In this document: one piece after another, positions 1,321 to 54,047 of the stretch
How the letters are laid out: every line of letters begins with the position of its first letter
Position numbering within the stretch: position 1 is the stretch's first letter
NCBI RefSeq assembly: GCF_026151205.1
Contig: NC_087079.1
Location: forward strand, 1,452,028-1,516,027
Direction of reading: 5' to 3'
Length of the DNA: 64,000 nucleotides
Source: Bolinopsis microptera
Taxonomy: Eukaryota; Ctenophora; Tentaculata; Lobata; Bolinopsidae
Made by a program: the position numbers and the translations under genes
Notes under the pieces: generated by a model
Database searches by the model: none
Seen by the model: only the letters and a program-made list of their open reading frames with translations
Told to the model about the DNA's origin: nothing

Positions 1321-4300
1321 ACCCCCACAAAAATTTTTTTTAAAAGTGGGGGACCTTAAACAAAAAAACCCCAAAAAAACCCCCGTTAAATTTTAAGGGT
1401 TTAACCCCCAAAACCCCGGGAAAAAAAAAAACTGTTTTAAAATGGTGTACCTCCTAAACGGGGGAAAAACCACACCAACCCTTTTAAAAATTTGGGGGCC
1501 CCCTAAACGGGACAAAAACCACACCAAAACCCAATTTTTAAAAAAAATTTTTGGGGCCTCCAAAAACCTGGGAAAATTCCCACCCCAACCATATTTTTTT
1601 ATGTTACCTCCCCAAATGGGGAAAAACCAACCCCCCCCCCCCTAAAAAAAAAAAACCCCCCCGTTTAAAGTTTTGGGGTTTTTAAATAAAAAAAAACCAC
1701 AAAAAAATTTTTTTAAAAAATTTTGGGAAATCCCCCCAAAAATATTTAAAAACCCTTCCCCTAAAATTTTTAAAAAACCCCCCAACCCCGAAATACGTTT
1801 TCCTTTCCCAAAACCAAAACCAACCACATTAAATATGTTACTTTTTTTAAAAAAATTAAAAACCAAACCAAAAATTTAGTTAATTAAACCCGGGTAAACC
1901 AACCCCAAAAAAAAAAAAACTGTTAATCCAAAAAGGGTAAACCCCCAAACCCCAAAAATTTTTAATTACGGTTTTGGGTTTTCCTTAAAAGGAAAAAGAA
2001 ACCACCCAACCCAGTTTAAAATACTGTGACCCCAAAAAAAAAATACCCCCCAACCCCCCCAAAAAAACTAGTTAAAGAAAGGGGGCCCCCTTAAGGGGTA
2101 AAAACCCCCCAAAAACCCCCTATTTTAAAGTAAATGTTTGGTCCTCCTAAAACTGGGCTACCCAAACCACAAAAATATTTTTATTCCCCTAAACGGGAAA
2201 ATAAAACCCCCAACCCCCCCATTTAAATTTTCTGTTTACCCTCCTAAAAAGGGGGGAAAAAAAAACCCCCCCCAAAAAATTAAAAATTTTGTTTTGTGTA
2301 AATCCTAAAAAAAACCCCCCAAAAAAATTTTAAATTTTTTTTAAATGGGGAAAACCCCCAAACCCCCGTAAATACTTTAAAAACCCCTAAAAACTGGTAA
2401 TTTAAACCCCCAAAAAATATTAAATAAAACCCCCCCTAAAAGGGAAAAAAAACCCCTTTTAAAATTTTTTTTTTAAAAAAAAAAAGTTAAACTTTTTAAA
2501 AAAATGGGGGGGCCCCCAAAACCCAAACCACCAAATTTTTAAATACTGTGTCCCCTAAAAACCCCCTTTAAAAAACCCCACCCAAAACCCCAAAAAAATT
2601 TTTTAAAATTTTTTTTTTTTCCCCCCAAAAACCCCTTTTAAAAAACCCCCAACCCCCAAAAAAAAAAAAGACTGTGTACCCCCCTTTTAAAAAAAAAATA
2701 AACCCAAAAAATTTTTTTAAATCAAAAAACCCCCTTTAAACTTTAAAATAAAACCCCAAAAAAAAAAACCCAAAAACAATTAAAAGGGCCCCCCCAAAAG
2801 GGGACCCCCAATAAAAAAAACCACCCAACCCAAAAGTTTTATTTAAAATGGGGAAAAACCCCCCAAAATTTAAAAATTTTTTTTTTTTCCCAAAAACCCC
2901 AAAATTTAAAACTTTTCCTTAAACTGGGGGTTTTAACCCCAAAAACTGTTAAAACAAAACCCCCTTTAAAAAGGGCCTTAAAAAATTTAAAAAACCCCTT
3001 AAATAAAAATAAAAATTTTTTTAAAAAAAAACCCCCCAAACTGAAATTTTAAAAACCAAACCCCCCCCCAAAAAGTTAAATTTTCTGTGTACCTCCTAAA
3101 GGGAAAATAAAAACCCCCCACCCAAACCAATTTAAATACTGTGTTTTTGTACCTCCCCCAAAAAAGGGAAAAAACCACACCAAACCACAGTTTAAAGTAA
3201 ATTTGGGGGTTTAAAAAAAAAAACCCTTTTAAATACTGGTTTTTTAAAACAAAAAACCACCCCCAAACTTTTTTTTTTACCCCCAAATGGGTAAACCCCC
3301 AAAAAAATTTTTTTTAAAACAACCCCCTAAAAAAAAAAAACCCTACCACCCCAAAAATATTTTAAAAAACTGGAAAAAAAACCCCCCCTTTTAAGGTATA
3401 CCACCCCAAAAGGCTTTACCCCCCAAAACTTGGGGGAAAAAAAACCCCAAAAGGGGCCCCAAAAAAAAATTTAAACCAAAATTTTTAAATTTGTTCCTTC
3501 CAAACCCCGGGGGGAAAAACCAAAAAACCCAAAAAAAACTTTTTTCCCCCCCCCAAAAAACCCCCCCCCCCAAAAAATTTTTCCTCCAAAAAAGGGGGGA
3601 AAAAACCCCCCCCCCAAACCCCCAAAAATGTTTTGTTTATGTTCCCCTAAACGGGGGGAAAAAACCCCCAAAAACCCCCAGTTAAAGTTTCTTGTAATTT
3701 TAAAAAAAAAACCCCTTTTTTAAAAAATTTAAAAACCCCCCCCCAAAAATTTAAATTTTAAAAAACCCTAAACCCCCAAAAACCCCAAAAAATAAAACCC
3801 CCAAAAAAACAAAAAAATTTTGTTACCCCTAAACTGGGTACCCCCAACCCCCCCAAAAAGTTTGTTTTGTGTTTTTAAAAAAACCCAAAAAAAATTTTTT
3901 TTTAAAAACCCCCCAAAACTGTTTGGGGGCAATTTTTAAACCCCAAACAGGGGAAATAAAACCCAAAAAAAAAGTTAAAAATTTTACCCCCAAAAAATGG
4001 GAAATACCCCCCAAAAAAAAAATTTTAAAAAAAAAAAATAAAAAAACTTGTGGGTACCCCCCTAAAGGGGGGAAAAAACCACAACCCAACCCCTTTTTAA
4101 AGTACTTGTTTGGGGGTTTAAAACCCCTTAAAAGGGGGAAAACCCCCCCAATAGTTTTTTAAAAAAAACCCCTTAAAAAATAAAACCCAAAAACTTGTTT
4201 TTTTTTAAAAACTTTAAACCCCAAATAAATTTCCCCCCCAAAAAAAAACTTTTAAAGGGTTTTACCCCCAAAAAACCCCCGGGAAAAAAACCCCCCCTAT

Positions 4301-4830
4301 TAAAAAAATACTTGGGACCCCAAAAAGGGGTTTTTTTAAACCCCCCTAATTAAAATTGGGTTTCCCCCCAAAATGGGGGAAAAACCAAAAAAGGGTTTTT
4401 AAAGTTTTACCCCCTAAATAAAATACCCACCCCCACAATTTTTTAAAATATGGGGGGCCCCCAAAAAGGGTTTTTCCCCCCCAATTTTTTTAAAAATGGG
4501 TTACCCCAAAACGGGTTCCAAACCCAACAAAAAAAGGGATTTTTACCCCAAAAGGGGAAAAACCAAAACCCAAACTAAAAAAACGTTTTCCCCAAAAGGG
4601 GGGGAAAAAAAAAACCCATAGTTTTTTTTGGGGAAAACCCCCAAAAAGGGGTTAATAACCCAAAAAAAAAAAAAATTTTTAAAAAATTTGGGATTTTTAA
4701 CCTCCTAAATTTTGGGAATTTTCCCCCCCCACTTTTTAAATCTTAAACCTCTCGGGAAAAAACCAAACAAAAATTTTGTTTTAAATAAAAAAAATTTTAA
4801 GTTTTGGGGGTTTTTTAAATTTTGGGGGAA
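1321..4830. other. Homopolymer-corrupted consensus of a tandem array
   Basis: The stretch is almost only runs of A, C, T and G three to ten bases long. Remnants of the clean 51-bp unit that follows at 4831-5187 recur throughout: GTACCTCCTAAAC near 1446, CTGTGTACCTCCTAAAGGG near 3085, ACTGTG near 2030, and CCACACCAACC-like pieces. I read it as a long version of the same array whose consensus was called badly, and not as real sequence. About 69 units of 51 bp would fit the length. Open reading frames here (Lys/Pro/Phe/Gly-rich) should be ignored. Confidence 0.75.
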
Positions 4831-5187
4831 ATACCTCCTAAACTGGGATAATACCACACCAACCACTAGTTAAAGTACTGTGTACCTCCTAAACTGGGAC
4901 AATACCACACCAACCACTAGTTAAAGTACTGTGTAGTGTGTACCTCCTAAACTGGGACAATACCACACCAACCACTAGTTAAAGTACTGTGTACCTCCTA
5001 AACTGGGATAATACCACACCAACCACTAGTTAAAGTACTGTGTACCTCCTAAACTGGGACAATACCACACCAACCACTAGTTAAAGTACTGTGTACCTCC
5101 TAAACTGGGATAATACCACACCAACCACTAGTTAAAGTACTGTGTACCTCCTAAACTGGGACAATACCACACCAACCACTAGTTTTA
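4831..5187. repeat. 51-bp tandem repeat, about seven clean copies
   Basis: Units begin GTACCTCCTAAACTGGGA, continue with ACCACACCAACCACTAG and end AAAGTACTGT. Copies differ mainly at one position (GGGACAATA versus GGGATAATA), and these two types largely alternate. One unit near 4930 carries an extra GTGTA. The array is the intact edge of the corrupted block to its left. Confidence 0.9.
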
Positions 5188-5309
5188 CACGTGGTGGAAT
5201 ATAGGGTTAAACTTTATCCGCCATTATATTACCCCATTATCCTTAACAGTATGGTTACCCGAGAAAATGGAGGACAATCAACGTTTTACACCTATTACTA
5301 TCACGGTGC

Positions 5310-5545
5310 AGGACACTGTATCAGCTTATCAGACATCCTAAGCTACTTGCCAGTGATTTAGTCTTATGGGAACCTATGCATGGTACAGCACAGCAAGGCC
5401 AACCAAAACAAAGCTACTTGTCTATAATACTGAAGGAAGTTGGGACAAACTCTAAAGAGGAACAGCAAACCCTGATGCGGGACAGGGATATATGGAGGGA
5501 ATTATCTGGAGTAGATCGGACTTAGTTCCGACATAGTAGTAGTAG
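5310..5545 (+). mobile_element. LINE 3' end (reverse-transcriptase ORF C-terminus)
   Basis: An open frame ending at a TAG near 5523 reads LASDLVLWEPMHGTAQQG, then a Tyr/Leu-rich stretch, then [18 protein letters not shown]. This is the typical tail of non-LTR retrotransposon ORF2 proteins (WEP.HG....G.P..SY...L, then L..DR..W). The element ends in (AGT)n at about 5536-5548 and has no poly-A. A second copy of the same 3' end lies on the minus strand at 26071-26218. The 5' part is absent. Confidence 0.75.
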
Positions 5546-5603
5546 TACTATCACAGTGATATGATCGGCTCATTAAATAACTTTAGTAACTTTAGTAACT
5601 CAC

Positions 5604-8600
5604 TTGAGTAGCATGTTAATGTTATCGTGGGCACCGGGAGCTGTGTTGATAACCTCCAACAAATCCACCACCTCTTCTCCGTTCTCCAGCAGTATACTCT
5701 GAACATTTGGGAATTAGACTCATAATTATATCTAATTAGATAATAATGATAATTGAGATCATATTATGATAATCGATGAATTATGATAATAGTTAGCAAT
5801 GCAAATGTATTATTGAGTGTGAGAAATAACCATGCGTATCTTAACACGTGTCTTAAGACTGAGAAAATACAAACAACTTGAGAGGGGATTCTTGAAACAG
5901 ATAAATGATAGCATGGTAGCAGGAGCTTTCGAAAAACAAATTTGGAAATATCGTCTTCAACTAACTCTGAAAGGTTGGTGCCGTTTAGCAGCCTGGTAGA
6001 AAATAAGAACTATCTCTAAAAGGTTGGTGCCGTTTGGCAGCCTGGTATAAAATAAGAACTAACTCTGAAAGGTTGATGTCGTTTGGCAGCCTGGTAGATG
6101 ACATCAGCTCCAATCTGTTGTAGAGCCGGAATATCTTGTTCTGTCATCTTCAGCATTACTTCGTCAAATATCACCTGTAGTAATTGGAAACTTTTAATGA
6201 AGGTAATTATGATTTTAATCAAGGTTATTATACACTTGAGAGTTACAGCTCATGATGACTTCATGGCCAGTATGATTCGATTATCTGCAGCAAATTCTTG
6301 CAGACACGATCAATAATGTGCAATAATTTCAACAGACTTCGTTATATTAGTCGAATTATAGTCCTAGCAATAATATGAAAATTCAAAACGCTGTTTCTCA
6401 AAATACCTTGAACTGAGTATAGTATAATAATATATAATATTATCACACTTTCGAGCCAAATTTGGCAGGAAAGCAGAATTGATATTCCATGCCCCGATGG
6501 GGAGCACTGGCTCTCACCCGGGGGCATGAAATATCAATTAGTTGCTCAGAGAGTGCTCCATAGAAACGAGGAGCCCGCTCTCAGCAACTGATCTACTACT
6601 GTAAGGTACTGATTTAAATAATGATTTAAATCAATAACCTGAGTAGTCTACGACCTTAAATGCAATGGTCAGAGAGAATTTACAATTTGATGCAAAATGT
6701 ATACTTAAACGAAAACTTAAAACATTTCCTTGCGTTTCAGATGCGTCAAGCGAAATAAAAACTTTCCTTGTAAAACTTCCTCCCAATGTTGACTTTCTAT
6801 TGTACTTCTTAGCCTAATAAGGCAGGAAAGCAGAATTGATATTACATGCCCCGATGGGAAGCACTGGCTCTCACCCGGGGGCATGAAATATCAATTCGTT
6901 GCTCAGAGAGAGTCAGATATTCCCATAGGAACAAGGAGCCCACTATCAACAACTGTTCTACTACTGTGAGGTACTGATTTAAATAAAGATTTAAATCAAC
7001 AACCTGAAGTAGTCTATGACCGTAAATGCAATGATCAGATAAACTTTCCAGATTTAGGAAAAATATATATTTATACCTTGTTTTAAAAACATTTCCTTGC
7101 GTTTGAGTATGTTAAGCAAAATACAATTTTTTGTTCTAAAACTTTTTCAAGCTGTTGCTTTTTTACTGCACTTCATAGTTCAAAACCTAATTAGGCTTCG
7201 AATGATGAAACAAAGTAAAAACTCCCTGGTTTGTACGAGTTTCAAGCGACTTAAGGTTACTGAAAACGAGATCAAAGTTTACAAGCAGACTTGAAAGTTG
7301 CACAAAGTTTTGGTACTTGTCAGCGATACAATCAATCAGACTCATTAATTTCCTTAATCGCTTACTTGAAATTAAAAAGGAAGTGTCAGAACAAACTACA
7401 GTCACCCTCACAAAAAGTAGTAAACACAGAAACGATGTTTGATCTATTCGAAGGAAGAAAACACACAAAACAAAGCCAGATTTCAGCCATTTCAGACCTG
7501 AATTTTAACCCCCTCTGATCCCTTCTTTGAGCCATATTCCATATAGAAATTGTGCAGAAATTATACTTGGCTTTTCCAAACCGGTTTCGCCTAGATTAGC
7601 TTGCGAAATTCGTGGCTGATCTATAAACAGACTGATAAAGAGACTTATATGTAGATTCTGTACAATAAAGAGCGGAAATTCTATCCCAGGACTAGTTTTA
7701 ACTGAATTTTAGTTAGTGCAAATAAGTGCAATAAAAACATCCTATAAAATATATTATTTATATAAATATATCAAGGGACGAATGACGTAACTTAATCAGC
7801 TAATCTGGTTATAAATTAGTCTGGGCACTGGGGCAAACAGGTCCGATGATTAATGTGCTGCCATTCATTAGACCAATTCAATATTGGTAACAGTACGGGT
7901 GAACTACCTGGCCATGACCAGGGTGGTTATAGGCTGGTGGAGTACTGCGTTCTAAAATGTTGAAGAGATACATTTGAATATTACAAATGTTCTGATAATT
8001 TCCAGTTCAGATAATTTCTAGCTCGAAGCAGATAATGGCAAATAATTTATAATGGCAAGTAAAGATGAATACTGACTAAGAACTAAGCAGAATACTTGAT
8101 AAAATTCTAAGTCAACGATTACAAGTTGCATTGATTAAATCATTCTGAAATAACAGACAATCAAGAATCAAGACGGACGATAATATTGTTGATGTAAATT
8201 AGAGAGTGTAGTGTATAATGTGGACTGATAAATAGACACTAATTATGACCCCACAGCTCTATTCAAATACAAGAACTAGGAAATTCTTTCACCTTATCGT
8301 AGATACAGATTATACGATAAGAACTGTGATGTATAATCAACACTTAAACGGATGTTCTATACATTATACTGCATCTACAGTTTTAATGACTCTAAAAATA
8401 TCTAATAGAAATAAAGTATTAGAATCACCTCACATCAATTGATTTGCAGGATGTAATTACGTATCAAACGCGCTCGCGGCGGAATATTCTAGGCTCATAA
8501 GTACAAGACCAATAGGCGGAAAACACATTAATATTGCATGCACTAGGTAGCAGTACAAAGCAAATTCAGCGCGGCACACAGCATTCACTGTGTCATAAAT

Positions 8601-11600
8601 GTGAAACGCGAGATTCTAATTTCACGTATTGTATCTTTAATATATGAAATACTAACTTATCGAGAGCTATATATAGCTTGGACATTATAAACATAAATAA
8701 GTTCGACATGTCTAGTATTGCTTTGGTGAGATTCATAACTAACGTTTGATCAAATTCTGATTTCCAGGCCAAATTTGGCTCCAAATAATGGCAAATAATG
8801 GCAAGTAAAGATGTATACTGACTAAGAACTAAGCAGAATACTTGATAAAATTCTAAGTCAACGATTACAAGTTGCATTGATTAAATCATTCTGAAATAAC
8901 AGACAATCAAGAATCAAGACGGACGATAATATTGTTGGTGTAAATTAGGGTGTGCAGTGTATAATGTGGACTGATAAATAGACAATCATGGCGCCACAGC
9001 TCTATGTAAATTTAACAACCAGGAAATTCTTTCACCTTATCGCAGATACAGATTATACGATAAGGACTGTGATGTATTATCAACACTTAAACGGATGTTC
9101 TATACATTATACTGCATCTACACTTTTATTGACTCTAAAAATATCTAATAGAAATAAAGTATTAGAATCACCTCACATCAATTGATTTGCAGGATGTAAT
9201 TACGTATCAAACGCGCTCGCGGCGGAATATTCTAGACTCATAAGTACAAGACCCATAGGCGGAAAACACATTAATATTGCATGCACTAGGTAGCAGTACA
9301 AAGCAAATTCAGCGCGGCACACAGCATTCACTGTGTCATAAATGTGAAACGCGAGATTCTAATTTCACGTATTGTAACTTTAATATCTGAAATACTAACT
9401 TATCGAGAGCTATATATAATATATAGCTTGGACATTATAAACATAAATAAGTTCGACATGTCTAGTTTTGCTTTGGTGAGATTTATAACTAACGTTTGAT
9501 CAAATTCTGCTTTCCCGGCCAAATTTGGCTCTAAAGAAAGTGTGATAAAACATTAATCACATGCCTTCTCATGCGATATCAACATTTTCAAAACTCGGCA
9601 AGCCTCGTTATTGAAAATGTCGATATAACCCTCGGCAAGCCTCGGGAAATATCGAAACTTTCGCTAACTCGGCAAGCCTCGTGGGCGAAAGTTTTGATAT
9701 CGCATGAGAAGGCATGTGATAAATGTATAATATTATATAATAAGATAATATGAGATGTAATAGTAACTTACCAGAAGTTTATCACGTTCAATGTAGTACC
9801 GTGCAGCAGTAGATTGGGTCAGCACTACTCTCAGTAACTTCAATAAACACATGTCTATACCCACACTGCCTGTTAACATGGTTACTGTTAACATGGTTAC
9901 TGTTAACATGGTTACTGTTAACATGGTTACTGTTAACATGGTTACTGTTAACATGGTTACTGTTAACATGGTTACTGTTAACATGGTTACTGTTAACATG
10001 GTTACTGTTAACATGGTTACTGTTAACATGGTTACTGTTAACATGGTTACTGTTAACATGGTTACTGTTAACATGGTTACTGTTAACATGGTTACTGTTA
10101 ACATGGTTACTGTTAACATGGTTACTGTTAACATGGTTACTGTTAACATGGTTACTGTTAACATGGTTACTGTTAACATGGTTACTGTTAACATGGTTAC
10201 TGTTAACATGGTTACTGTTAACATGGTTACTGTTAACATGGTTACTGTTAACATGGTTACTGTTAACATGGTTACTGTTAACATGGTTACTGTTAACATG
10301 GTTACTGTTAACATGGTTACTGTTAACATGGTTACTGTTAACATGGTTACTGTTAACATGGTTACTGTTAACATGGTTACTGTTAACATGGTTACTGTTA
10401 ACATGGTTACTGTTAACATGGTTACTGTTAACATGGTTACTGTTAACATGGTTACTGTTAACATGGTTACTGTTAACATGGTTACTGTTAACATGGTTAC
10501 TGTTAACATGGTTACTGTTAACATGGTTACTGTTAACATGGTTACCGTTAACATGGTTACCATTAACATGGTTACTGTTAACATGGTTACTGTTAACATG
10601 GTTACTGTTAACATGGTTACTGTTAACATGGTTACTGTTAACATGGTTACCATTAACATGGTTACTGTTAACATGGTTACTGTTAACATGGTTACTGTTA
10701 ACATGGTTACTGTTAACATGGTTACTGTTAACATGGTTACTGTTAACATGGTCACTGTTAACATGGGTACCGTTAACATGGTTACCGTTAACATGGTTAC
10801 TGTTAACACGGTTACTGTTAACATGGTTACCGTTAACATGGTTACTGTTAACATGGTTACTGTTAACATGGTTACTGTTAACATGGTTACTGTTAACATG
10901 GTTACTGTTAACATGGTTACTGTTAACATGGTTACTGTTAACATGGTTACTGTTAACATGGTTACTGTTAATCCGATGGATCGCAGCCCATATTGGGTTG
11001 TGGGGAAATGAAAAAGCGGATGAGCTGGCCAAGCTTGGCACGACCAGCGAACACGTTTTGAAATGCCCAATCCCTCAATCTTACATCAAACGACAAATCA
11101 ACAACAAAGTCCACAGACTGAATCAGGATATCTGGTTAACGGATGGTCCTAGACACACCAAACTAACACTTGGCCAAAAGCACACCAAAATAATCAATAA
11201 TATAAACACGTCACTCATCAACAATAGACAAGACTATAGAACCGCAGTCCACCTAATCACGGGCCACTGTGGCTTAAACAAACACCTTCACACCATCCGC
11301 AAATCTAGCACCAGTGCTTGTCCTATGTGCGGTGACGGAGAGGAAACTGTCTCACACTTTCTTGGACAGTGCCCAGCTATTGCCCAACTAAGAGGTCAAT
11401 ACTTTCGGGACTACTACCTCTCGGTCAACGACATATTCGACAACCACCACATTACCACAATCGTCAACTTCACAAACCGCACCAAACGCTTAATAGTACC
11501 AGAAGAACTGGATCAGACTGGTGTAACTTAGCGCATTAACACATCACATTTGCAGCCTTGCCTAACTGATCTATAAACTCATCTGGTACCAAAGCGCGGT

Positions 11601-11732
11601 ATTCCCATTCAGATCATTACCACCACCGTCCTCCACAATTCACACTGTTGTCTCCAATAAACCCCTCCTCATCCCAGAGGTAGGCAAAGCATCTTAATGC
11701 TATCCTCTAGTGGGCTTTCTATGCCCAGCCTC

Positions 11733-11763
<31 letters not shown>

Positions 11764-13335
11764 TGGTTACTGTTAACATGGTTACTGTTAACATGGTTAC
11801 TGTTAACATGGTTACTGTTAACATGGTTACTGTTAACATGGTTACTGTTAACATGGTTACTGTTAACATGGTTACTGTTAACATGGTTACCATTAACATG
11901 GTTACTATTAACATGGTTACTATTAACATGGTTACTATTAACATGGTAACTTACTCTCAGTCATGAGCATGGTAAGGAGTCTCGGGGACTCAATGATGGT
12001 CTGTCCGAGGGAGGGGGAGTAGTCCACCAACCAGAACACACATTCCAGACATTGTCTGAAGTCTTCCTCGTCTGGAGATACAAGTCCTGGGGGTGATAGT
12101 CAGTATTTGGATCTGATAAAAACGGCTTTAAATGTGATAACTATGGTAACGAGGTGATTCACAGGGTAGCAAGGGGAATTAACAGGGTAACAGTGGTGAT
12201 GGAAGCTAATAGAAATATCTTTCCCTAGAGGCTAGAACTATGTACTTTATTAACGCATTACGTAATCTACCAGAGCTACAGTATGAGACCATTCAGACCA
12301 AGGTTAATGGTTATACTGTTATCCAATGATTTATCAAATTTAACGAGGTATGATCGTCATCTTCTTAGAGCGTTTGATGTCTGTGTGAAGGTAAAATGTT
12401 GACATCCCATTACTTTAGTATTGCTATACAACTACTACAGATTTATTTAATTGATTAAATGTAAACCATGCAGGCTCTCAACTAGGAGGTTGGTCAGGAA
12501 GTCGGGAATTTGATATAAAATATTGATCAACCAAAACTAATATAATATGGTCAGTGCACAGTTGGTGCATAATATCGAGCGAGTGTACTTAATGTTGAAC
12601 CTTGAATGTTATTGGCTAGTTCCATGAAACTATCGACCACCAAAGGGAGGAAAACACCAGAAAACTCCTGTGACTGAGTGAAGCCCATGCAGCACTTAGC
12701 TAGGAGAGTGCAGAGTTTAGTAGCCGTGCTCCAGGGCACCCTCAACCCCTCAAAATCTTGTTTTATCACATCCGTCATGGTGCTGGGATCATGGAGAGAG
12801 ATGTAAGACTTATGTGGCAATATCCTGCTTTTCATGGTATTGGTAATATTGTTAAAACACTGATCACTATTTAATTACGGTTATAAAACTTCTTGTCAGA
12901 TTATAGTCTGACAAAAACCACAATCATCAGTTACTTAATAACCCTGAAGGTATCATGTTTCAAACCTACCTCATGATCTCGTTCTCCCAGAGCAGTGATC
13001 TGATCTCCCTGTTATCATGCTGTTCCAGCAGCTGTTCTATCTGGTAGATTGGAACAGTAACAACTTCATTAGTTCATTAAATCGATCATTATTTTAGGGG
13101 ATTTATTCACTTTACTTGTTAGTAATGTAGGATTCATCGCGGATATCATTGGATTTTAACAATATTCCCTAACAAATAATAATTTATAACAAACTTGTAG
13201 ATTTTAAGCTAATTGAAAATTATGTTAAAGCAAGCAATAAGTTAAACAAACCTGTAAAAGAAGTGTTGGTATGTTGCTATCTCCCGCTTTAGACAGCTTG
13301 TACAAGAGAACATCAACCTCTTGTTTCGCAGCCAT
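5604..13335 (-). CDS. Multi-exon gene, unidentified helical protein (3' end not found)
   Basis: Seven exons join with matching phases and GT/AG sites: 13335-13252 (ATG, 28 codons), 13040-12970, 12824-12601, 12086-11955, 9869-9772, 6174-6064 and 5698-5604. The product starts MAAKQEVDVLLYKLSKAGDS and includes EQLLEQHDNREIRSLLWENE, FWLVDYSPSLGQTIIESP and DIPALQQIGADVIYQAAKR. The Leu-rich helical character, with no signal peptide or membrane segment, would suit an ARM/HEAT-like scaffold, but I do not recognise the family. The last exon found ends in phase 2 at a GTGAGT donor, so coding continues to the left, in or beyond the repeat-rich 5.2 kb. Phase agreement at all six joins makes the model strong even though the function is unknown. 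Confidence 0.8.
5963..6096 (-). repeat. 49-bp unit repeated at an exon's 3' end
   Basis: Three consecutive units (5963-6011, 6012-6060, 6061-6096 and on into the exon) repeat the last codons of the exon 6174-6064, ending YQAAKRHQPFR, together with its splice donor. The donor GTTAGT survives in the first and last units and is changed to GATAGT in the middle one. The next exon (5698-5604) joins in phase from the exon-proximal copy. The distal copies look like by-products of a local tandem duplication and may act as decoy donors. Confidence 0.75.
6465..7190. repeat. Two tandem copies of a ~356-bp multi-hairpin repeat
   Basis: Copies start GGCAGGAAAGCAGAATTGAT at about 6465 and 6821. Each contains serial inverted repeats. 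In copy 1 the first (6477-6539) pairs AATTGATATT..ATGCCCC with GGGGCATG.AATATCAATT. The second (6542-6587) pairs TTGCT.AGAG with CTCT.AGCAA. The third (about 6592-6643) pairs AGGT.ACT.GATTTAAAT with ATTTAAATC..AACCT. The block lies in the 3.6-kb intron between exons 9772 and 6174 of the minus-strand gene. The entry motif GCCAAATTTGGC recurs near 8780 and 9525, so the family is dispersed. Confidence 0.7.
7191..8042. other. Intronic sequence, nothing recognised
   Basis: AT-rich intron of the minus-strand gene. Short open frames here show no family motif and no splice context. A TATATTATTTATATAAATAT patch lies near 7750. Confidence 0.5.
8043..9532. repeat. 745-bp tandem duplication (two copies)
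   Basis: Copy 1 (about 8043-8786) and copy 2 (about 8787-9532) match closely along their length, at an offset of 743-745 bp. Both end in CCAAATTTGGCTC. Each holds a small hairpin (CTTATCGTA..TACGATAAG) and a 65-residue open frame with no recognisable domain, probably chance. It lies in the same intron as the multi-hairpin repeats. Confidence 0.8.
9556..9720. mobile_element. Cloverleaf-like foldback element with 27-bp terminal inverted repeats
   Basis: Perfect 27-bp terminal inverted repeats (9556-9582 and 9694-9720; left arm begins ATCACATGCCTTCTCATGCG) enclose three stem-loops that tile the interior: 9582-9620 (stem ACATTTTCAA), 9621-9654 (stem CGATAT) and 9655-9694 (stem AAACTTTCGC). Each loop carries the same 14-nt motif CTCGGCAAGCCTCG at 9594, 9631 and 9668, exactly 37 nt apart. 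No ORF is present. The stem differs in each hairpin while pairing is kept. It sits just downstream of exon 9869-9772, in the intron. It may be a MITE/foldback element; the function is unknown. Confidence 0.85.
9870..10970. repeat. 15-bp satellite, about 73 copies
   Basis: Near-perfect copies of GTTAACATGGTTACT. Variants (GTTACC, ATTAAC, GTCACT, GGGTAC) cluster in the last third, at 10545-10840. The unit has no stop codon in several frames, so long artificial reading frames (VNMVT, MLTVT, NHVNS repeats) cross it. It fills the intron between exons 11955 and 9869 of the minus-strand gene. Confidence 0.97.
10971..11763 (+). mobile_element. 5'-truncated RNase H-bearing LINE inserted in the satellite
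   Basis: An open frame enters directly at 10971 and stops at 11531. It reads RWIAAHIGLWGNEKADELAK (the C-terminal part of an RNase H domain, with the GN..AD..A motif). A zinc-knuckle-like C-terminus follows: CPMCGDGEETVSHFLGQC, a CCHC pattern. This is typical of I-clade-like non-LTR elements with RNase H. A 3' UTR (11532-11736) and a 27-nt poly-A (11737-11763) follow, and the satellite resumes at 11764. The copy is dead because EN, RT and most of RNase H are missing. Confidence 0.88.
11764..11948. repeat. 15-bp satellite, continuation after the LINE
   Basis: About 12 more copies of GTTAACATGGTTACT, the last four carrying ATTAAC. It is contiguous with the 9870-10970 array apart from the LINE insertion. 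Its edge meets the GTAAGT donor of exon 12086-11955 on the minus strand. Confidence 0.95.
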
Positions 13336-13748
13336 TTTACAAACCGACTTCACAGGCTTTTTTTTCAGTTACAAACTTGCTTTTTTCTTGTCTTACATCT
13401 AAAGCTGTGCTTTTGTTAGTCAGCTGATTGTTTTTATGATATTTAACAAAAATTGGAATTGACGGATTTTTTCGAGTAACTTTCATAAAATGAAAAAATA
13501 AATAAACTCGCACAATCAAAACTTGCAACAAAACTAACAATAAAAACTTACAATCAATATGAATTTAATCATCGTCGAATTCTATACAATATAAAATTAC
13601 CAACTTGAAAAATGCAACCAAAAACATAGATAGCAGATACGTGATTTAAAAACCCAGAAGAATAATTTTGTTTGATGCATAGTTTACCCATAATTGGCAT
13701 ATTATTCATTTACTATTCATCCCCTCACAGTCTAGTTCCTCACACATT

Positions 13749-15900
13749 CTAACAAAATACATAGTACGACACAGCTCCTCCAGCGCCAACAACTGCAAAA
13801 ACCGGAGCTGCAGCAGTACCAAGAATTGAGGTGGCTCCCAGACTTTGTAACCATGCGAAAGCAGAACCGGCGGCGACATTCCCGAAGTAACCTTGTATTG
13901 CAGCAGCGATTGAACCACCAGCAATTCCATTTGCGGTGAAACCTGTTAACCATGGTAGACCTAGGCTAGATAAAAAGCCGGAAAGAATACCGACTCCTTC
14001 CGCCCCTATTTCACATAGATTGAAACTGAAGATAAATGAAAAAGTTACAGGATATAACATTATTGTAGGGTCATTTTGGCATTTGCCAAAATAATAATTT
14101 TATTGTCATAGTCTATCAATTTATAACTACAATGTATCGGTGGACATAATAAAGATAGACGACTGATAAGAAAGGACCGTGAAGAAGGACGTGGAGAGAG
14201 AAGAATACGAAGGGAAGCCTAATGGATGCGCAGAGGAGATCGCGAGAAGTGGAGCCCTAATGGCAAATGGACTTGAAACTGTTTAGATTCTAAACTTGAT
14301 TAAAGTTGGTTTTATATCATAAGTTTATATGCATGTCAGTATTAGTTCAGTATTTTAGCGTAGTATTTTAGGGCATTTATAAGTGTACGAAATTTAGTAC
14401 AGCAGGGTAGTGCAGAGAGTTCAGTTTAAGGCCACAGGGGGGGGGTCGAGGCCTCAAAAAATGCAAAAAAACATTATGCTTTGAATCAATATATATTTTT
14501 GTGGTGGATACTTTGCCACCACTCATTTGTCTGTAGCTATTTTACTTTTTTTTATAAATGAGGTTAACCAATTCTCATTTAACCTCATTTTTTTGATAAA
14601 TCGATAATGGAGGGCAGAAATATTGATGCCATTACAACTGAAAACTACGATAAGCTTTGTTTTTATTGTTTTTGTGTTATTTCAGCAGTTAAACTTTGAA
14701 AAATATACAAATAAAGGCAAAATTCTCAAAAATCACATAACATAAAAAACAGTTTTTTGCCTCTCCTGAAAACCTCGAATTTTTGACTTCAAAATCTATC
14801 TTCTCCTAGAGTTTTTATCCATTTCACCTCAAATTTGGAACTTATGTTCCTGACATAAATTTAAAAGTTTGTTATGTAACGATTGTTGTAATTTTGCTCC
14901 TAACTCTTTTTATGAGGTTAACCATTTTAAATTTTGTAACCCGCACTCATGGTTAACCTCATATCTCAGCTTTGGAGCAAGATATCATAAATCGTTACAT
15001 AACAAAAACTCAAAATACCTTGAAGAACATTGTTGCCAAGTTACAAGGTTCTAAGTCATAAACTGAAAAAGAAGATAGATTTTGAACACGATTTCATTTA
15101 AAGTTTTCATTTACAATAGAATTACAGGTAAACCTCAAAATTCAACGCGCGATATCTTCAAATAGGAAACTTTGTTTTCGGTAAGGACAAAAGCATTTGA
15201 AAATTTAGATCGAACTCTACAACATATCTCAAAATCTCAAAATCGACCTCGGACCCCCCCCCCCTGTGGCCTTAACACCTCTGTTTTGGGGAGCGGAGAG
15301 TTCATTTTAACATCTCTGTTTTGATTATCAGAGGGTGCATTGTAGCACCTCTGTTCTGGTTACAAAGAGGATAGTTTAGGAATTGTTTAGAGCAGAGAGA
15401 TTTGGGGAGCAGAGAGTTCATTTTAACATCTCTGTTTTGATTATCAGAGGGTGCATTTTAACACCTCTGTTTTGGTTACAAGGAGGATAGTTTGGGATTT
15501 GTTTAGGGATTGCTAAAACGAGTGGGAGATTGTTTATACTATCAGGGGGTATTTAAGAGTGGGCCTGTTGGATGGCAGGACACACCCTTTTTGGTTGAGT
15601 GCCACGGAATTTGCAGTTAAAGTTGACAGTTAAATAACTAGTATATTCGAATTATTAACATAGTATTTGAGGAACACTGAGATATTGTAATTACAATTCT
15701 TAACGGTTTATTCAAATTAAAGTATTTCCCCTTGTCAACTTGCTGAACAAAATATAAAGGAAAAGAGCCTTTTATCAACATATTATAATTAACCATATTC
15801 TATATCGAATCAATAGGCAGTAGGCACGGAAAAAGAAAGATATTTTAATAATTACTCACGGCAGGTCTTTTGCAGATTCTCCTTCAAGTATATATTCCAT
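13749..15900 (-). CDS. ISG12 / IFI6-IFI27-like small hydrophobic protein
   Basis: Two exons: 15900-15860 (ATG, 13 codons plus 2 nt, donor GTGAGT) and 14025-13749 (acceptor CTTCAG, stop TAG). They join in phase 2 to give 105 residues. The product starts MEYILEGESAKDLP. It contains a Gly/Ala-rich hydrophobic core, LTGFTANGIAGGSIAAAIQG and GNVAAGSAFAWLQSLGA, which matches the ISG12 signature (GF...GI..GS.AA..Q....NVAAGS....LQS.GA). In vertebrates the family is interferon-inducible and acts at mitochondrial or ER/nuclear membranes; the role here is unknown. A second gene on the same strand (16786-17178) has the same intron phase near the N-terminus. The 1.8-kb intron contains a TTAA-flanked element and a 116-bp tandem repeat. 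Confidence 0.85.
14430..15271. mobile_element. 842-bp TTAA-flanked inverted-repeat element (piggyBac-like MITE)
   Basis: Terminal inverted repeats begin GGCCACAGGGGGGGGGTC on the left and read the same from the right (with three more G). Both ends are bounded by TTAA (14426-14429 and 15272-15275), the target-site duplication typical of piggyBac-superfamily elements. Internal inverted segments include TTATGTAACGATT (about 14872) against AATCGTTACATAA (about 14990), plus repeated GAGGTTAACC. There is no transposase ORF, so the element is non-autonomous. It lies in the intron of the first ISG12-like gene. Confidence 0.75.
15280..15515. repeat. 116-bp tandem repeat, two copies
   Basis: The block TTTGGGGAGC.GAGAGTTC followed by CATTTTAACATCTCTGTTTTG recurs with an offset of 116 bp (15285 and 15401). 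Within each copy, ACACCTCTGTT-type pieces repeat again. It directly abuts the TTAA-flanked element. Confidence 0.75.
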
Positions 15901-16117
15901 AATTGACTCCTATCATATCATCAAGTTTGTTTAAAATTCACTCGAATTTATTTAAATAGCTACGGTAATTTAGATACACAATCTCGCTATAGTAACGCTA
16001 TATTATCAAAATAAACTTAACAAACATTGCTTTTATTTATCATCCCCATCGTGTAATACATCGTTGAACTATACTAATTATTTCCTTTAACATTTTGATC
16101 AGAAAATAAAGTTTTAC

Positions 16118-16280
16118 TCAATAACGAATAAATAACAAAGCGGAATTGAATGATCCGTCACCAATTAACTGCTGTACAAAATATGTAGCTCCAGATCCTG
16201 TTGCGACTCCACTCCAAGTAAAGCCCGCAAAATAAGTAGCGCTCGCCGTGACCCCTGTCGCCCACTTGTTGTCATATAAT
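16118..16280 (-). pseudogene. ISG12-like fragment or divergent exon
   Basis: Reading leftward, the frame gives TASATYFAGFTWSGVATGSG and then ATYFVQQLIGDGSF before a TGA at 16118. The pattern AGFT.SGVA.GS.A...Q follows the ISG12 signature of the two neighbours, but the NVAAG..F..LQS.GA half is missing and the frame stops early. A partner first exon was not found. It may be a decayed third copy, or a real divergent terminal exon. Confidence 0.55.
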
Positions 16281-16785
16281 AATATGTATGTTTGACTAAT
16301 GCATCGATTTACTTAAATGATTTAATGAGGAAGAAAATAATGTCTCATGTGGAAGAGCGTATAATTATAACAGCTGATGAACGAGTCACACAGAAAGTGT
16401 GTCATATTTCTAGTTCAACATTTGATTTAGTTCGGATAGTTACCATAGTCATAAGTGAAACAATCTCTTATTCTAAATTTTTAATAACAAGATAGTGATA
16501 CAAAAACATCAATAAAAGATACTCAAGATGATAATTATGTGTAATGAAATTTATAAAAACGAGCAAGTTGTCGCAAGAAAATTTGCGCAAAAAAGTATTC
16601 TTCTAATTTAGAAAAAAAAAACAATAACATAAAAACATGATTCTTATTTATTGATCATGAATTTAACAACGTGGAGTAAAATTATCTTACTAAATCTAAC
16701 ACGTCCAGATAAGAGTTTTGTTCGCAATAAATTAATGTTTTGCATAAAAAGTCCTCTCAAAATCACTCCTCCCAACAGGTACTTT

Positions 16786-17178
16786 TTAACAGATGATAAA
16801 GAGAGCGACACCGCCTACAACTGCAGCAGTTCCAATTACTGTTGTGGCAGCAACACTCTGCATGAAAGCGAAAACACCCCCTGCAGCCACGTTTCCAACT
16901 GCAGCCTGTGCGGCTGCCGCTGCTGACCCTGCTGCTATACCAGAAGATGTAAAGCCCGCCAAGAACGGTACGCTAGTAGCGATACCTGCCCCAATGGAGC
17001 CTAGTCCTCCAACAAGTGCACAAATACCCCTGCAATATTAGGAAATATATATATTATATAATAATAATAGGAGATAATAGTTTCATGATGGAAAAAGTGT
17101 TATTCTGAACATTAAATTATGGAATCATTATTTCGCAAGCTTTTCAACGGATACATTAAATTGAAATACTTACGGCAT
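16786..17178 (-). CDS. ISG12 / IFI6-IFI27-like protein, second copy
   Basis: Exon 17178-17174 carries only ATGCC before a GTAAGT donor. Exon 17029-16786 (acceptor TTGCAG) completes an 82-residue product ending in TAA. The core reads FLAGFTSSGIAAGSAAAAAQ and GNVAAGGVFAFMQSVAATT, a clear ISG12 signature with two hydrophobic Gly/Ala-rich segments. The intron interrupts codon 2 in phase 2, the same phase as in the copy at 13749-15900, which supports a tandem duplication. The extremely short first coding exon is unusual but is supported by good splice sites. The function is inferred from the family only (small membrane-associated protein). Confidence 0.82.
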
Positions 17179-17751
17179 CTTTGTGAATTTCTTTTCTACG
17201 GAAAGTTAAAATTAGTTATACAAATTATGATATTCTGAGAATTGCGTCAATTAGTTAATGATTAAGAGGAGAATTAAGAGGAGAAAGTAGATAATTCAAC
17301 GAGAATAGACTAAATTAATAACCGATAAACGAGTCACAAAATAAGTGTAACGTTACGTTAGCACTATCATCTCATCGCAACCAAATGAAATGTCTTGTTT
17401 TCTAATTATGACAAGGCTACATTAATACTACTAAAAAAATAATTAGCTACATTTTAATTTTTAGTATATTTAAGTATTGTTAGTAGTTACTCCAATGCTT
17501 AAGACCCAGGCATGGCATGGTTAAATAATTCAACTAGGCTTCACGACACGTGGAAATTGATTATTTAATTACAGGATCAGGGTTTTATACTAGTATAAAC
17601 TGCAACTGGATGCCATTATATTATATTAATTTGAGTTAATTATTCATAGTGATTCATAACTTAACAAAATATAACTACATTTTGGGTTGAAACAACATAC
17701 AAGATAGCAATGGTAAGAACTCTAGGTTACAATTATTAGAGTTGCTCGGTT

Positions 17752-18451
17752 TATACAATTAGAGTTGCTAGGTTACAATTAGAGTTGCTAAGTTACAATT
17801 AGAGTTGCTACGTTACAATTAGAGTTGCTACGTTACAATTAGAGTTGCAAGGTTACAATTAGAGTTGCTAAGTTACAATTAGAGTTGCTACGTTACAATT
17901 AGAGTTGCTACGTTACAATTAGAGTTGCTACGTTACAATTAGAGTTGCTAGGTTACAATTAGAGTTGCTAGGTTACAATTAGAGTTGCTAGGTTACAATT
18001 AGAGTTGCTACGTTACAATTAGAGTTGCTACGTTACAATTAGAGTTGCAAGGTTACAATTAGAGTTGCTAAGTTACAATTAGAGTTGCTACGTTACAATT
18101 AGAGTTGCTACGTTACAATTAGAGTTGCTACGTTACAATTAGAGTTGCTACGTTACAATTAGAGTTGCAAGGTTACAATTAGAGTTGCTAAGTTACAATT
18201 AGAGTTGCTACGTTACAATTAGAGTTGCTACGTTACAATTAGAGTTGCTACGTTACAATTAGAGTTGCTAGGTTACAATTAGAGTTGCTAGGTTACAATT
18301 AGAGTTGCTAGGTTACAATTAGAGTTGCTAGGTTACAATTAGAGTTGCTAAGTTACAATTAGAGTTGCTAGGTTACAATTAGAGTTGCTACGTTACAATT
18401 AGAGTTGCTAGGTTACAATTAGAGTTGCTAGGTTACAATTAGAGTTGCTGC
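17752..18451. repeat. 20-bp minisatellite, about 35 copies
   Basis: The unit is GTTACAATTAGAGTTGCTAG, with diagnostic variants at the junction (CTAGG, CTAAG, CTACG, CAAGG). Their order recurs (AAG-ACG-ACG...AAGG blocks), which suggests higher-order segment duplications. It is related in sequence to the noisy array at 1-455. Confidence 0.95.
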
Positions 18452-24624: not shown

Positions 24625-27600
24625 GTCAGAGTGTTACGACGATACCAACTGTAGGATTCAACGTGGAGACAGTCACGTACAAGAACGTCAAGTTTAATGT
24701 CTGGGTGAGTGAAAGTGAAAGTTGTTCAAGATATTAAATTTATTCCGATTTCAACCTAATCTTGTTAGTTGTTACTGAGGCTAAGATAAATATGACCGTT
24801 ATCAAGGCTACGTATAAGAATATAAGATCTCTTTCAACTTACGACATCACATGTTTTATTCTCACAAAGATAGTTTTGCGGCAACTGCGCCAAACAGGTT
24901 TATTCATTGACGGCTAGCTCACAAGACATACGTAATTACCATCAAAAGAATCGCCTTTGTTGCTAAAAATAGCAGATCATAAATCCTGTATGTTAATTTA
25001 TAAGTGTCAAGGCTCAAAGCACTCAACAATTAGGAAAGTTCAAAGTCACCAGCAGCTCTGACAGTGTTCTAGTATGATTGTATATAGCACAGCTGTGTGT
25101 GTGATCTTGTGAACTATCTAGTTAGTGAACCGACAACCAGTCTGCTTAATCAGCATAATTAGACATAATTATGGTAATTAAAGAGATAATCATGGTGATT
25201 ACAGAGGTAATTAGGGTTTATCAGAGGAGTAGTGATGATAGGAATATGATGGGAATCATGATTTATTCATGGTTACTGGTTATGTTCAGCTGTGGTATAC
25301 ACATTGTACGTGATGATCATTTTATGTCACTCTCGTCTCTCAACCATAAAGATTGCTTTATCATCTCTAAATAAAACCTTTGTTCGAGTAAACGACTGAA
25401 TCAGTCCAACTACATTATCCAACAACTTTACATTATGTAAGTAGTTAAAAAACTGCACTGAATAGTGCAAGAAGAACACTGCAACAATACTCGCATGAGC
25501 ACTGAGCAGTAACCCATTTGTTCTGTAATAAGCGGAAATGATAGGAAATGGTAGCTCAGTAACTTTACTGTGTGCTGTTAGATCTGTGTACCAATGTCAC
25601 GTGTCACGCGGTGCTGCACTACTTGACTACAGCTACGAGACCAAATCCTGGCTGCTTGTTATTTGAGGTTTTCATCTGGAAATGAGATGCCACCTAACAT
25701 GTGGCCAAGACATGCTGCCTGTAACATGCAGCCAGGACTGACTAAACCAGAAATAGATCTCACTGCTCCCAACCTTGTAGTTGTACCTATTATAGCTCAT
25801 ATTACTCAGTTGTAACCTTGTAGTTGTAACTACATATACATCTGCAATATGTATACTGTATAAACATTTTAACAAGTTAAGAGGTTACTTTAGGTAATGT
25901 AAATGTTGATGTGGTCCCATGTTTACATGAGATTTGTGTGTAATAAGGGACTACATTTACTTTACTCCCTATACCCCAGTATTGTAATATTACAGTATAT
26001 TATTATTATAGCGTCTACATATTACAACACGTGACACAACATCAAGATGTATACTGTTTATACTATAGTTTACTACTACTACTACTACTACTATGTCGGA
26101 GCTAAGTCCGATCTACGCCAGAAAACCCCCTCCATATATCCCTGTCCCGCATCAGGGTTCGCAGTTCCTCTTTAGAGTTTGTCCCAACTTCCTTCAGTAA
26201 CATAGACAAGTAGCTTTGTCTAGTTTAAATACTGTTAATAATGTTTATACTGTGTCGTCTGGTAGAAACTTCAGTTAAGTAAGCAGTTACATTACCCACG
26301 TCACAACGTATTAACAGTTAACAGTTAACAGTTCCACATGTGGTCTACTGCTGTAAACTTGGCAATTTGCTTGCAGTAATTGTAATGCAAATGTATTTTA
26401 AACTAATTACAACACTAGAAATCTATTGCATTTATTGAGTATTATGTAACGCGATGGAAATATTTTAAGCGGGTAATATCCTGTCCAAACCCAGGATACA
26501 TAACATGAAGACTTTGTTGTAACTTGTATGAAAAGCATTAATATATACATATATATATATGTATATGTATGTTATATATAATATTACACGCACGTAATAC
26601 AATAATTACTATCGCATTCGTCTGCGTTGCGAAGCAGGAAGTTCCTCGTTAGGGCCAATTAATGAGACATGTTAGTTTTATTGCAGTGTATTTAAGCGAG
26701 TAATGTTACATAACATTACTAGTATGTGACGTTAGGAAAATAAACTTGTTCGAAACATTCAGAAGCTGATGTTCTGCTAATTAAACAGGATAGACGCTCT
26801 GTCTGTCTGTCTGTATGTATGTATGTCCATACTTGTACATTGTACATGAATCTGTGTTTGTTTGTATGTACAGAAGTATAAGTGTTTAATACAAATAAAA
26901 GTAAAAGTGTGTACGACCAGGAAGAATATGAGAACATGATACCGTGTCGAGACACTAATTAAATATAAAAACATGTGTGTTTTGTAATGTTATTTGGCAG
27001 CTGTACAACCTTTTATACTTGCTTCATTGTAGAAATCACCCCATAAAAAGATGGTATTATTTGTACAATATTTCGTGGTTAGTTCACATCAATTAAATAC
27101 ATAAAAATACTATGTAGTGGTATAAGGTATTGCAGGTGTGGTAGTATTGCAAGTGTGGACTAGGCACTAGCACACGTACAATATAAAGATATACAGCATT
27201 ATACAATATATTATATAATTTTATAACATACTGTAAGACAAATGACAATGAATCTAACAATGAATCTAACCAACTACGTATAAAAATGTCGACTAACAAT
27301 CATCACATTCATAAAACATAGATCAACTGATCATGATCCTGGGTGATTGTTATTATCCTACATTCAACTTTTAGAAGGCTGGATTGTCATTTGTCTCACT
27401 CGACACTCTGTGATATTTCGAATGTTAATTTTAGATAAAAAAGAATCACACCGATCATTATACTATGATGGGTATGATATAACAGTACTATAATATATTA
27501 TGATACACTATAGCTATAGTCAACTTCAGTATAAGTACACTGTACAGTGCTGTAACACAATGCAATATAATATGAGAATATGCAGTATTATCAATTATTA

Positions 27601-52132: not shown

Positions 52133-52666
52133 GATTACGAATTTGCAAATATCGGAAAATGTTTTAGCTAATGTTGGAAGGGGTTTAATTGACAGGAGTT
52201 TATTAAGTAAGTCTTTTGACCAGGTGTAACTGTGTGAAAAGACAAACTGGAATTATTGATTTAGCCGCGTCAATCAAATCGTCCGGTTCAGCACTAGACG
52301 AGTTAGCGTCCCAAAAGTCCAGCTGCTGATCGGCTAATCTTTTCACAGCTGTCAGTCTGTCACTTTGACTGTGAAATATTGCGTTGTAACTGTAAAGCGG
52401 AAGTTTTACTATCAGTATCACCATCAATAATAATTTGGTAGTTGAGCAATGTTCCGTGAATTGAATTAGAATGAAAGCTTTGAAGAGACTTTGTTTATAG
52501 TAGCTAGAATCATAAACAGTAAACGTGGTATCATGATTTTACTAGAGCGAGAAATTACCAGTGAATTGCAGCATCTTTTATATATTCAAGTTAAAACGAA
52601 ATATTCTTATAACAGTAGCTTAGCTTGAAACATTTCATTAGTCGTATAAAATTCAATTGTTTTCAG

Positions 52667-52830
52667 AAGAAGAGCAGTGTGTTGATGTACGTGCGAAAAA
52701 CTGCAAAAGGCTAAAGTCGAAACCAGATAGAATAAAGAAGAAATGCAAGAAGTCCATTTGGAAGAAGTCGTGTCCACAAACATGTGGTGCTTGCAAAATA
52801 GGCCCCGAAAAGAAAAAAAGAAAAGTGTAA
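52667..52830 (+). CDS. Orphan ShK-domain terminal exon
   Basis: After a good acceptor (TGTTTTCAG), the frame (phase 1 entry) reads EEQCVDVRAKNCKRL, continues through a Lys-rich middle, and ends SCPQTCGACKIG with a basic tail and TAA. The six-cysteine spacing, with C.D....C and C..TC..C, is that of an ShK domain. The entry phase matches the phase-1 ShK and Sushi exons of the metalloprotease at 46376-49450. Splicing from GAAG|GTACTT at about 49443 across the minus-strand kringle gene would keep the frame. Without transcripts it could equally be an orphan exon copied during the array duplication. Confidence 0.6.
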
Positions 52831-53492
52831 AAGAAGACTTGAACGGAAACATGGACGAAAAGTCCTCGTATTAAATTTAAAGTTAAATGCCCCGGACTTG
52901 GTCATGAAATTAAATGCATCTCTCAGCTCATTGATGAAGATCTGAATTGTATTTTATGTCCGGATGCGACTTTAAATATAAAATATGTAATTATTGATCG
53001 TTGAAAAAACTTATAGTGAGCAGATCTCTCTTCGCCATCAGCCAAACTAAAGACAGTGCCTGAGTGCAACTACAACACGTTGGGTAGTGATTGGTCACTA
53101 TCTTGTGTTATCATAATATGTTATAAACTAATTACAACAGCTAATTACGACACTGTTTTAAACCATGTAATTACAACACTTTAAATATATTACATTTATT
53201 GAGGATGTTACGGAAGGAATTAATTTAGTGTAGTCCGAGGAGACACAATCCTCCTCTCGTCCTTGAATGAACTAATAGTATGTTTACAAATTAAGCGATT
53301 TACGTACGTTGAAGTTATTTGTTGCTATGTCATAATGTTATAATATCATATTAATCCTAAACATGTTTCACATTATTTAACGTTGAAATGGTTAGATTTT
53401 CTTTTCTTTTGAGTTACCCACACAAGATTAACGTCACAGTTCACACATAACGTCACAACTACTCAAATAGAGTTCAGGAGGGGCAACATATA

Positions 53493-53708
53493 TTGCTTAC
53501 AGTGTTAGCAAGAGTGAATGCGGTTAATCCAACCCTTCAACAGTACTTTAAGAATCGTGATAAAACATTAATAATATCAAATGAAATTACGGTTATGAGC
53601 CTAATCACTAATACTGGGTTGTTTTTTCGAACAAGAGTTCACGTTTATTCAGGTAGTAGGAAGGAACGGAAAAACTGGTTCATGCGATTAGCAAATTTTG
53701 CTCGCTGA
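53493..53708 (+). CDS. Short conserved frame, unknown
   Basis: 71 residues, starting MLTVLARVNAVNPTLQQYF. A matching frame occurs in the next spacer (58271-58480), shortened by an in-frame 6-nt deletion. No domain was recognised. Conservation may simply reflect the recent duplication. Confidence 0.25.
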   Translation: MLTVLARVNAVNPTLQQYFKNRDKTLIISNEITVMSLITNTGLFFRTRVHVYSGSRKERKNWFMRLANFAR

Positions 53709-53735
53709 CTTAACTTCTCTACAGTATCCGCATTC

Positions 53736-53897: not shown

Positions 53898-54047
53898 CTT
53901 TAAGCAGCCAGCTTTACTCATTAAGTGCAATATCATTTACTTTATATTTTTACTGACAAATAAAACAGTTCAACGATTTATTTCATACCATTAATATTCA
54001 AACTTTTTACCAATCATTAATTTTAATACAATACATCAATTGCATCC

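Follow-up and report, generated by a model that had tools for sequence, protein, structure and literature searches.

A predicted DNA cloverleaf at the 3' end of a repeated non-coding element in the ctenophore Bolinopsis microptera

In a 64,000-nucleotide stretch of the Bolinopsis microptera genome (NC_087079.1, positions 1,452,028 to 1,516,027; hereafter, the window), three copies of the motif CTCGGCAAGCCTCG start at positions 9594, 9631 and 9668, with an exact spacing of 37 nt, between two long complementary arms. The initial annotation of this locus described a cloverleaf element of 165 bp and took the arms for its terminal inverted repeats. Is this structure a mobile element in its own right, a part of a larger one or the trace of a structured RNA, and by what kind of enzyme would it have been spread?

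The predicted fold

The closing arms (9556–9582 and 9694–9720, forward strand) are complementary at 27 of 27 positions. The minimum-energy fold uses 26 of these pairs (9556–9581 with 9695–9720), while the last A and T go to hairpins 1 and 3. The predicted structure is a four-way junction with no unpaired bases at the junction and with three hairpins: hairpin 1 at 9582–9620, hairpin 2 at 9621–9654 and hairpin 3 at 9655–9694, which carry the motif at their tips (9594–9607, 9631–9644 and 9668–9681, respectively). Folded as single-stranded DNA, the region 9548–9730 has a minimum free energy of −56.9 kcal/mol, compared to −17.9 ± 3.1 kcal/mol for 200 dinucleotide shuffles (z = −12.7); as RNA, it reaches −90 kcal/mol (z = −14.3). 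In neither case was any of the 200 shuffles as low. The three-hairpin structure and its 37-nt period, as initially described, are thus real. An alternative pairing, in which the junction would branch-migrate and act as a conformational switch, was written out and rejected, being 12.8 kcal/mol worse. The stretch 9545–9731 had no match in phage records.

In several details, the fold departs from the initial annotation. The stems had been called perfect, but hairpin 1 has a bulge of one base at 9610, and hairpins 2 and 3 contain internal mismatches. The motif had been taken for an open loop of 14 nt, but each copy is predicted to form a paired hairpin tip, C-TC-GG-CAAG-CC-TC-G. On the bottom strand, this tip reads C-GA-GG-CTTG-CC-GA-G, which presumably resembles the tandem sheared G-A motif. 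Nor is the motif nearly self-complementary, as had been stated: its reverse complement is CGAGGCTTGCCGAG, and the proposed pairing between loops is therefore without support. The window carries a T at 9609, at which it differs from the majority variant among 31 aligned copies, a G. With the G, the upper part of hairpin 1 is predicted to fold otherwise, at equal total energy. A search pattern built from the window's own variant matched the genome in the window only.

We aligned 14 tails, old ones included, and compared 13 of them with a main copy. The 758 comparable cells held a single two-sided change that kept the pair, 12 one-sided pair-keeping changes and 40 that broke the pair. The observation that the stems differ while their pairing is kept thus stands for the three hairpins within one copy, but not between copies, where one two-sided change is set against the 40 pair-breaking ones. 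Covariation gives the fold no proof, because the young copies are nearly invariant and the old ones decay; the predicted fold is supported by its energy and complementarity.

Extent, copies and insertion sites of the element

The genome (264.65 Mb in 232 contigs) was searched for the structure. The exact tip motif occurs 219 times (107 and 112 on the two strands), compared to none for the reversed control, and a 19-mer core around hairpin 2 has 66 exact copies, bearing out the suspicion of repeated mobile DNA. A 175-bp query matched at least 40 copies at 99–100%, each on its own strand (40 of the 87 candidates scored). The extent of the repeat unit was determined by comparing the window with the first 20 sampled loci, and then with 15 extended copies. 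Similarity among the copies extends far upstream of the arms and ends 9 nt past the 3' arm. Rather than standing alone, the cloverleaf forms the 3' terminus of a non-coding repeat of ~3.3 kb (6440–9729, forward strand), which reads TTATCAC...TGTATA between flanking TA and ATAT and whose boundaries are common to the copies and are fixed by an empty site (see below). The span 9556–9720 given at first describes the structure correctly but covers only part of the repeat unit, and the arms are the stem of its 3' end, the element having asymmetric terminal inverted repeats (ATIRs) of its own. Within 6440–9729, all stop-to-stop frames are shorter than 110 aa.

The element ends in TTATCACACTTTCGAGCC on the left and GGCATGTGATAAATGTATA on the right. 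The 5' ATIR (6440–6484) contains the palindrome GCCAAATTTGGC and was identified by aligning it locally with the reverse-complemented 3' ATIR (9503–9548), which lies immediately upstream of the cloverleaf. The ATIRs are about 45 bp long, and the 3' ATIR ends (9548) about 180 bp from the 3' end of the element (9729). Folding of 6440–6560 as DNA (z = −5.4) predicts a hairpin inside the 5' ATIR (6448–6473), followed by a second, longer foldback at about 6477–6539. Self comparison showed two tandem units of ~360 bp, 80% alike, in the left part (6454–7178) and two of ~750 bp, 94% alike, in the centre (8029–9538). The 3' terminus, TGTGATAA-ATGTATA (9715–9729), is seen in the head-to-tail junctions of L001 and L003 (loci sampled from the genome are numbered L001 onwards). 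When the 3' end is joined to the 5' end, the sequence reads TGTGATAA-ATGTATA-TTATCACA, a palindrome with 8-bp arms around 7 nt that was equalled in 28 of 20,000 random joins.

The two ends of the element occur together. In the first alignment, of 28 copies, homology ends right past the cloverleaf in all but L004, which has an inverted tail; two of the other 27 pass directly into the 5' end of another copy. When exact 5' ends were chosen regardless of the tail, 54 of 67 were followed by an exact core on the same strand at a distance of no more than 9 kb. The other 13 comprise three with a slightly changed tail (L040, L047 and L048), two in which the core is farther off behind nested inserts (C5:5697955 and C3:3708823), two with hairpin-deleted tails (L058, with one hairpin left, and L060, without hairpin 2), one that faces an oppositely oriented tail (C11:2779770, L068) and five for which no tail was found in the ~4.9 kb sampled (L056, L057, L059, L061 and L062). 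Conversely, 53 of the 66 exact cores are preceded by an exact 5' end at no more than 9 kb; of the other 13, 11 have ATIR and body upstream, and two belong to L004 and L067, whose tails are inverted or fused.

The segment between the arms is inverted in L004 (1794–1926) and L067 (556–839), and the inverted tail of the latter leads into a second, forward one. L044 (1117–1352) consists of a tail-to-tail palindrome of ~240 bp, without a body match and bounded by two 3' ends. Such inverted and tail-to-tail forms would be expected from template switching or snap-back at a long palindrome. The deleted tails (L058 and L060) and the inverted ones (L004 and L067) constitute a set of natural mutants.

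Among the 31 aligned copies, the 181-bp tail (9549–9729) is nearly invariant (π = 0.0014), with four variable positions and 26 copies identical to the majority sequence; the tail of L040 has, beyond these positions, an 11-nt deletion. The corresponding values are 0.010 for the 3' ATIR stretch (9480–9548) and 0.114 for the adjoining body (9170–9479), a contrast between tail and body that is inflated because the 31 copies were picked for having at least two exact motifs. At the 5' end, which is less constant than the tail, 19 copies gave π = 0.005 for the initial 20 bp and values of 0.02 to 0.07 for the 200 bp that follow. On the simplest reading, the family is young and recently spread, and the lines that were still moving differed in body, not in tail.

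At L010, an element-free paralogous copy of the insertion site lies nearby in inverted orientation, and the 400 bp of joined flanks align with it at 394 positions, without gaps. The left flank ends in CTTT, and the right flank begins with ATATC. This empty site therefore fixes both ends to the base and shows the absence of a target-site duplication (TSD), a feature that the initial annotation had proposed to check. Since most flanks read TA, we also considered a TA duplication of the kind made by Tc1/mariner-type DDE transposases, but L010, with TTT as its 5' flank and no duplicated base, ruled this out for that copy. L011 lies inside a perfect 91-bp satellite, and the array runs on at both sides of the junction with no loss or gain; L058 lies inside a 35-bp satellite.

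The target preference is mostly TA|RTAY. Counted over matches in the sampled loci, not all of which are independent, the 5' flank ends in TA in 26 of 29 cases and the 3' flank begins with RTAY in 39 of 48 (ATAT 32, GTAT 4 and ATAC 3); the other nine read TTAT (two, head-to-tail), ATCA (two, inverted tails), CCTT (two), GTCT, GCTA and GGTT. In the window, the target side of the 3' junction is ATAT (9730–9733). The right end of one copy abuts the left end of the next with no base between them in L001 and L003 (TGTATA|TTATCAC). Three copies, of each of which one flank was seen, had entered one homologous position in the body of other copies; its homologue in the window is ACATTA|ATATTG (9273–9274), as shown by the inner copy in L007, whose 5' flank stops at 9273. 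In a recombinase-carrying element (see below), the left flank of L081 ends at base 4615 and the right flank of L005 begins at base 4616.

Proposed rolling-circle transposition and its alternatives

We favour, with some reservation, the reading that this is a rolling-circle-type, mostly non-autonomous element without TSDs, in which a greatly enlarged 3' terminator takes the form of the cloverleaf. On this reading, we infer a Rep-type enzyme, acting in trans, that would nick the 5' end at N|TTATCAC, after which one strand would be peeled off or copied. The folded 3' end would then be recognised and a cut made after TGTATA; the circle would be closed or the single strand passed on, and the product would be joined to a TA|RTAY target with no bases duplicated. 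The cloverleaf, which probably marks the point at which copying of the element stops, would correspond, in enlarged form, to the lone 3' hairpin by which Helitrons end their transposition.

The anatomy of the element is consistent with this. In Helitron2, as described in the available text of PMC3627910, the 5' ATIR lies 0–2 bp from the end and within a hairpin, the 3' ATIR lies upstream of the 3' hairpin and the first base is T. The present element likewise has its 5' ATIR at the terminus and within the predicted 5' hairpin, its 3' ATIR upstream of the 3' hairpin structure and T as its first base (TT in 29 of 29 matches in the sampled loci). Helentrons and HINEs have palindromic subterminal repeats, central repeats and no TSD, according to the accessible parts of PMC4067079 and PMC7492417; our element shares the central tandem repeats and the lack of a TSD. 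It also resembles the canonical Helitrons (Helitron1 and Helraiser), as far as these are covered by the available portion of PMC4778049, in its 3' hairpin, its lack of a TSD and its exact head-to-tail junctions, precise circle junctions having been reported there for Helraiser. It differs from canonical Helitrons in that it lacks 5'-TC, CTRR-3' and insertion at A|T, and ends in TTATCAC...TGTATA instead. Compared to Helitron2 and HINEs, for which the available texts give 20–30 bp and 38–60 bp, respectively, its 3' ATIR is farther, about 180 bp, from the 3' end. In place of the 5–10 bp palindrome given there for mite HINEs, it has a predicted four-way cloverleaf of 165 nt with a 26–27 bp stem and three hairpins, and its target is TA|RTAY, unlike the TT or T-rich insertion sites of Helentrons. 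Because TT targeting, ATIR distance and palindrome size all differ, we do not file the element as a Helentron, but as one that would work like a Helentron.

The candidate enzymes in the genome were examined as well. An S between G and P in the HUH motif was proposed by the Helentron/HINE authors as a sign of a Helentron-type Rep, and this signature (preceding HxH) is found, together with a PIF1 helicase, in three Rep groups (L052–L054). Of 41 genomic Rep (PF14214) matches, none lies less than 32 kb from a listed exact 5' end or core, and there is no cloverleaf tail downstream of one member from each of four Rep groups (L052–L055). Second members of these four groups were compared, but this did not fix their 3' ends. 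A 20.8-kb span at C5:5697955 was considered as a large autonomous element and rejected, being a copy broken by an insert of ~17 kb. This insert (C5:5697801–5719000, L049–L051; joined positions 1381–18214), nested in a cloverleaf element, has inverted repeats of 1,459 bp (98%) and contains C2H2 zinc-finger and YqaJ-like ORFs. Counting against the rolling-circle reading are thus the lack of a Rep with these ends, the TA|RTAY target, the ATIR distance, the lack of covariation and the recombinase gene described below. In the paper library searched, Repbase entries not included, no paper joined transposon, cloverleaf, terminal inverted repeat and non-autonomous. If the rolling-circle reading is true, the 165-nt four-way junction, hardly changed in sequence while the remainder of the element drifts, would be a natural terminator of unusual size and would offer a clean substrate for asking whether Rep/helicase enzymes read shape or sequence and how much of a hairpin end they need.

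The main rival is a Crypton-type tyrosine recombinase (YR), which would circularise the element and integrate it at TA|RTAY, acting on the circle junction as its core site, with the cloverleaf serving as a structured accessory site or as a folded site of attachment. A 6.5-kb element at C5:12916720–12923200 has the family's 5' end and cloverleaf with YR-type ORFs between them, in the same orientation (L036:78–1929, L077 and L017). Its two overlapping ORFs match QRICH1 (E = 0.0034), DUF3504 (E = 6.7e-8) and Phage_integrase (E = 3.2e-4), of which DUF3504 alone is above the Pfam cut-off. A second such element (C3:3708823–3719010) encodes a protein 98% alike and is interrupted by a nested copy. Of four places where the YR is matched at 88% identity or more, three are within 2 kb of a family 5' end. 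A search of solved structures with one YR ORF gave no match at E up to 1. The element's junction palindrome is laid out like YR sites, with shorter arms; in the part of PMC3212892 available, YR sites have arms of 11–13 bp, 6–8 bp apart. The site preference and the three insertions at one homologous body site would suit a YR. Two copies may hold traces of double-strand exchange: in the old tail of L043, a different 7-mer replaces ATGTATA before ATAT, and the 5' end of L026 is preceded by ATGTATA, with no tail in the 21 nt seen.

Several observations argue against a YR as the engine. In the C5 and C3 elements alike, the gene is divided over two frames, and would thus have been copied in a broken state or be read via a frameshift or intron. 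At C1:15149662, a single frame of 673 aa covers the YR gene (frames were compared by coordinates), and the flanks sampled there (1.2 and 2.1 kb) hold no ends of the cloverleaf family. Homology of the gene flanks elsewhere is limited: at C1, it starts about 170 bp before the gene frame, and downstream of the gene, seven of eight partial matches stop 112–118 bp past it, the eighth (C10) at 67 bp. This limited homology suits a Crypton gene that was captured or nested and later copied along. At C10, a scrambled YR set lies near a 5' end, with the gene antisense to that end, and no trace of the YR gene is seen in the sampled non-coding copies. With double-strand exchange by a YR on unequal spacers, the ends would be expected to be less uniform than those observed, which have TT at the 5' end throughout and ATGTATA before the 3' junction in 40 of 48 matches (the others being two inverted and six diverged tails).

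Like Cryptons (CryptonA, as described in the available text of PMC3212892), two full-length relatives of the element carry a DUF3504/YR gene, and there is no TSD. Animal Cryptons, however, are reported without terminal repeats in that part of the paper, whereas the present element has ATIRs of ~45 bp and a terminal cloverleaf, with the gene in two frames in both gene-bearing copies; fungal, oomycete and diatom Cryptons have terminal direct repeats of 4–6 bp. The YR gene of the full-length relatives is cargo or a different engine, and we consider it rather unlikely that it drives the family. A Crypton gene inside such an element would mean either that the engine of one transposon was captured by another or that a YR is able to serve this anatomy, and telling the two apart bears on the origin of Helitron2-like ends.

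We also considered that a eukaryotic transposon YR might recombine a folded single-stranded end, by analogy with integron integrases acting on attC, the cloverleaf being the substrate. This would explain both the near-constant strand position of the crossover and the almost invariant 181 bp. Integron attC cassettes, as presented in the accessible part of PMC8946536, similarly have, next to the point of recombination, a palindromic single strand that is folded, and a polarity of the junction; attC is bacterial, however, and the likeness is one of resemblance only. We regard this as improbable.

The invariance of the tail might instead have been produced by a transcribed, structured RNA or by concerted evolution (gene conversion), with no recognition of the terminus. 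The predicted RNA fold is very strong, and identical tails are found on bodies that are 3–26% off the majority (gaps counted). However, the window has no Rfam match at gathering scores, covariation is lacking, conservation ends exactly at the point of integration, and the 3' ATIR stretch and the first 20 bp of the 5' end are conserved too, as terminal signals should be. This makes such an origin very improbable. The notion that the 165-bp cloverleaf is an independent foldback element or MITE that landed by chance at the end of a larger repeat has the bare palindrome of L044 in its favour, but is largely refuted and hardly credible, given the exact 5' ends upstream of 53 of the 66 cores and the nature of the other 13.

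Other features of the window and genome

Downstream of the element, the window contains a minisatellite with a 15-bp unit (9870–10971; about 73 units, 98% matches) and a shorter array of the same unit at 11763–11951. One long frame crosses the large array into sequence that, by eye, has an RNase H-like look. At 13749–14099, an ORF matches the interferon-induced 6-16 family (PF06140, E = 8.3e-9). The same series of three small repeats is found at 27245–28060 and 31674–32489, 4,429 bp apart, which suggests a local segmental duplication. Elsewhere in the genome, Rep (PF14214) matches at C11:3834408, 3846209 and 3856595 lie in equal frames of 1,759 aa, ~10–12 kb apart, perhaps a Helitron array. 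Farther along the window (49763–61986) are three adjacent long frames that are alike in sequence, one of which (54048–57080) encodes Ephrin_rec_like repeats and two kringle stretches.
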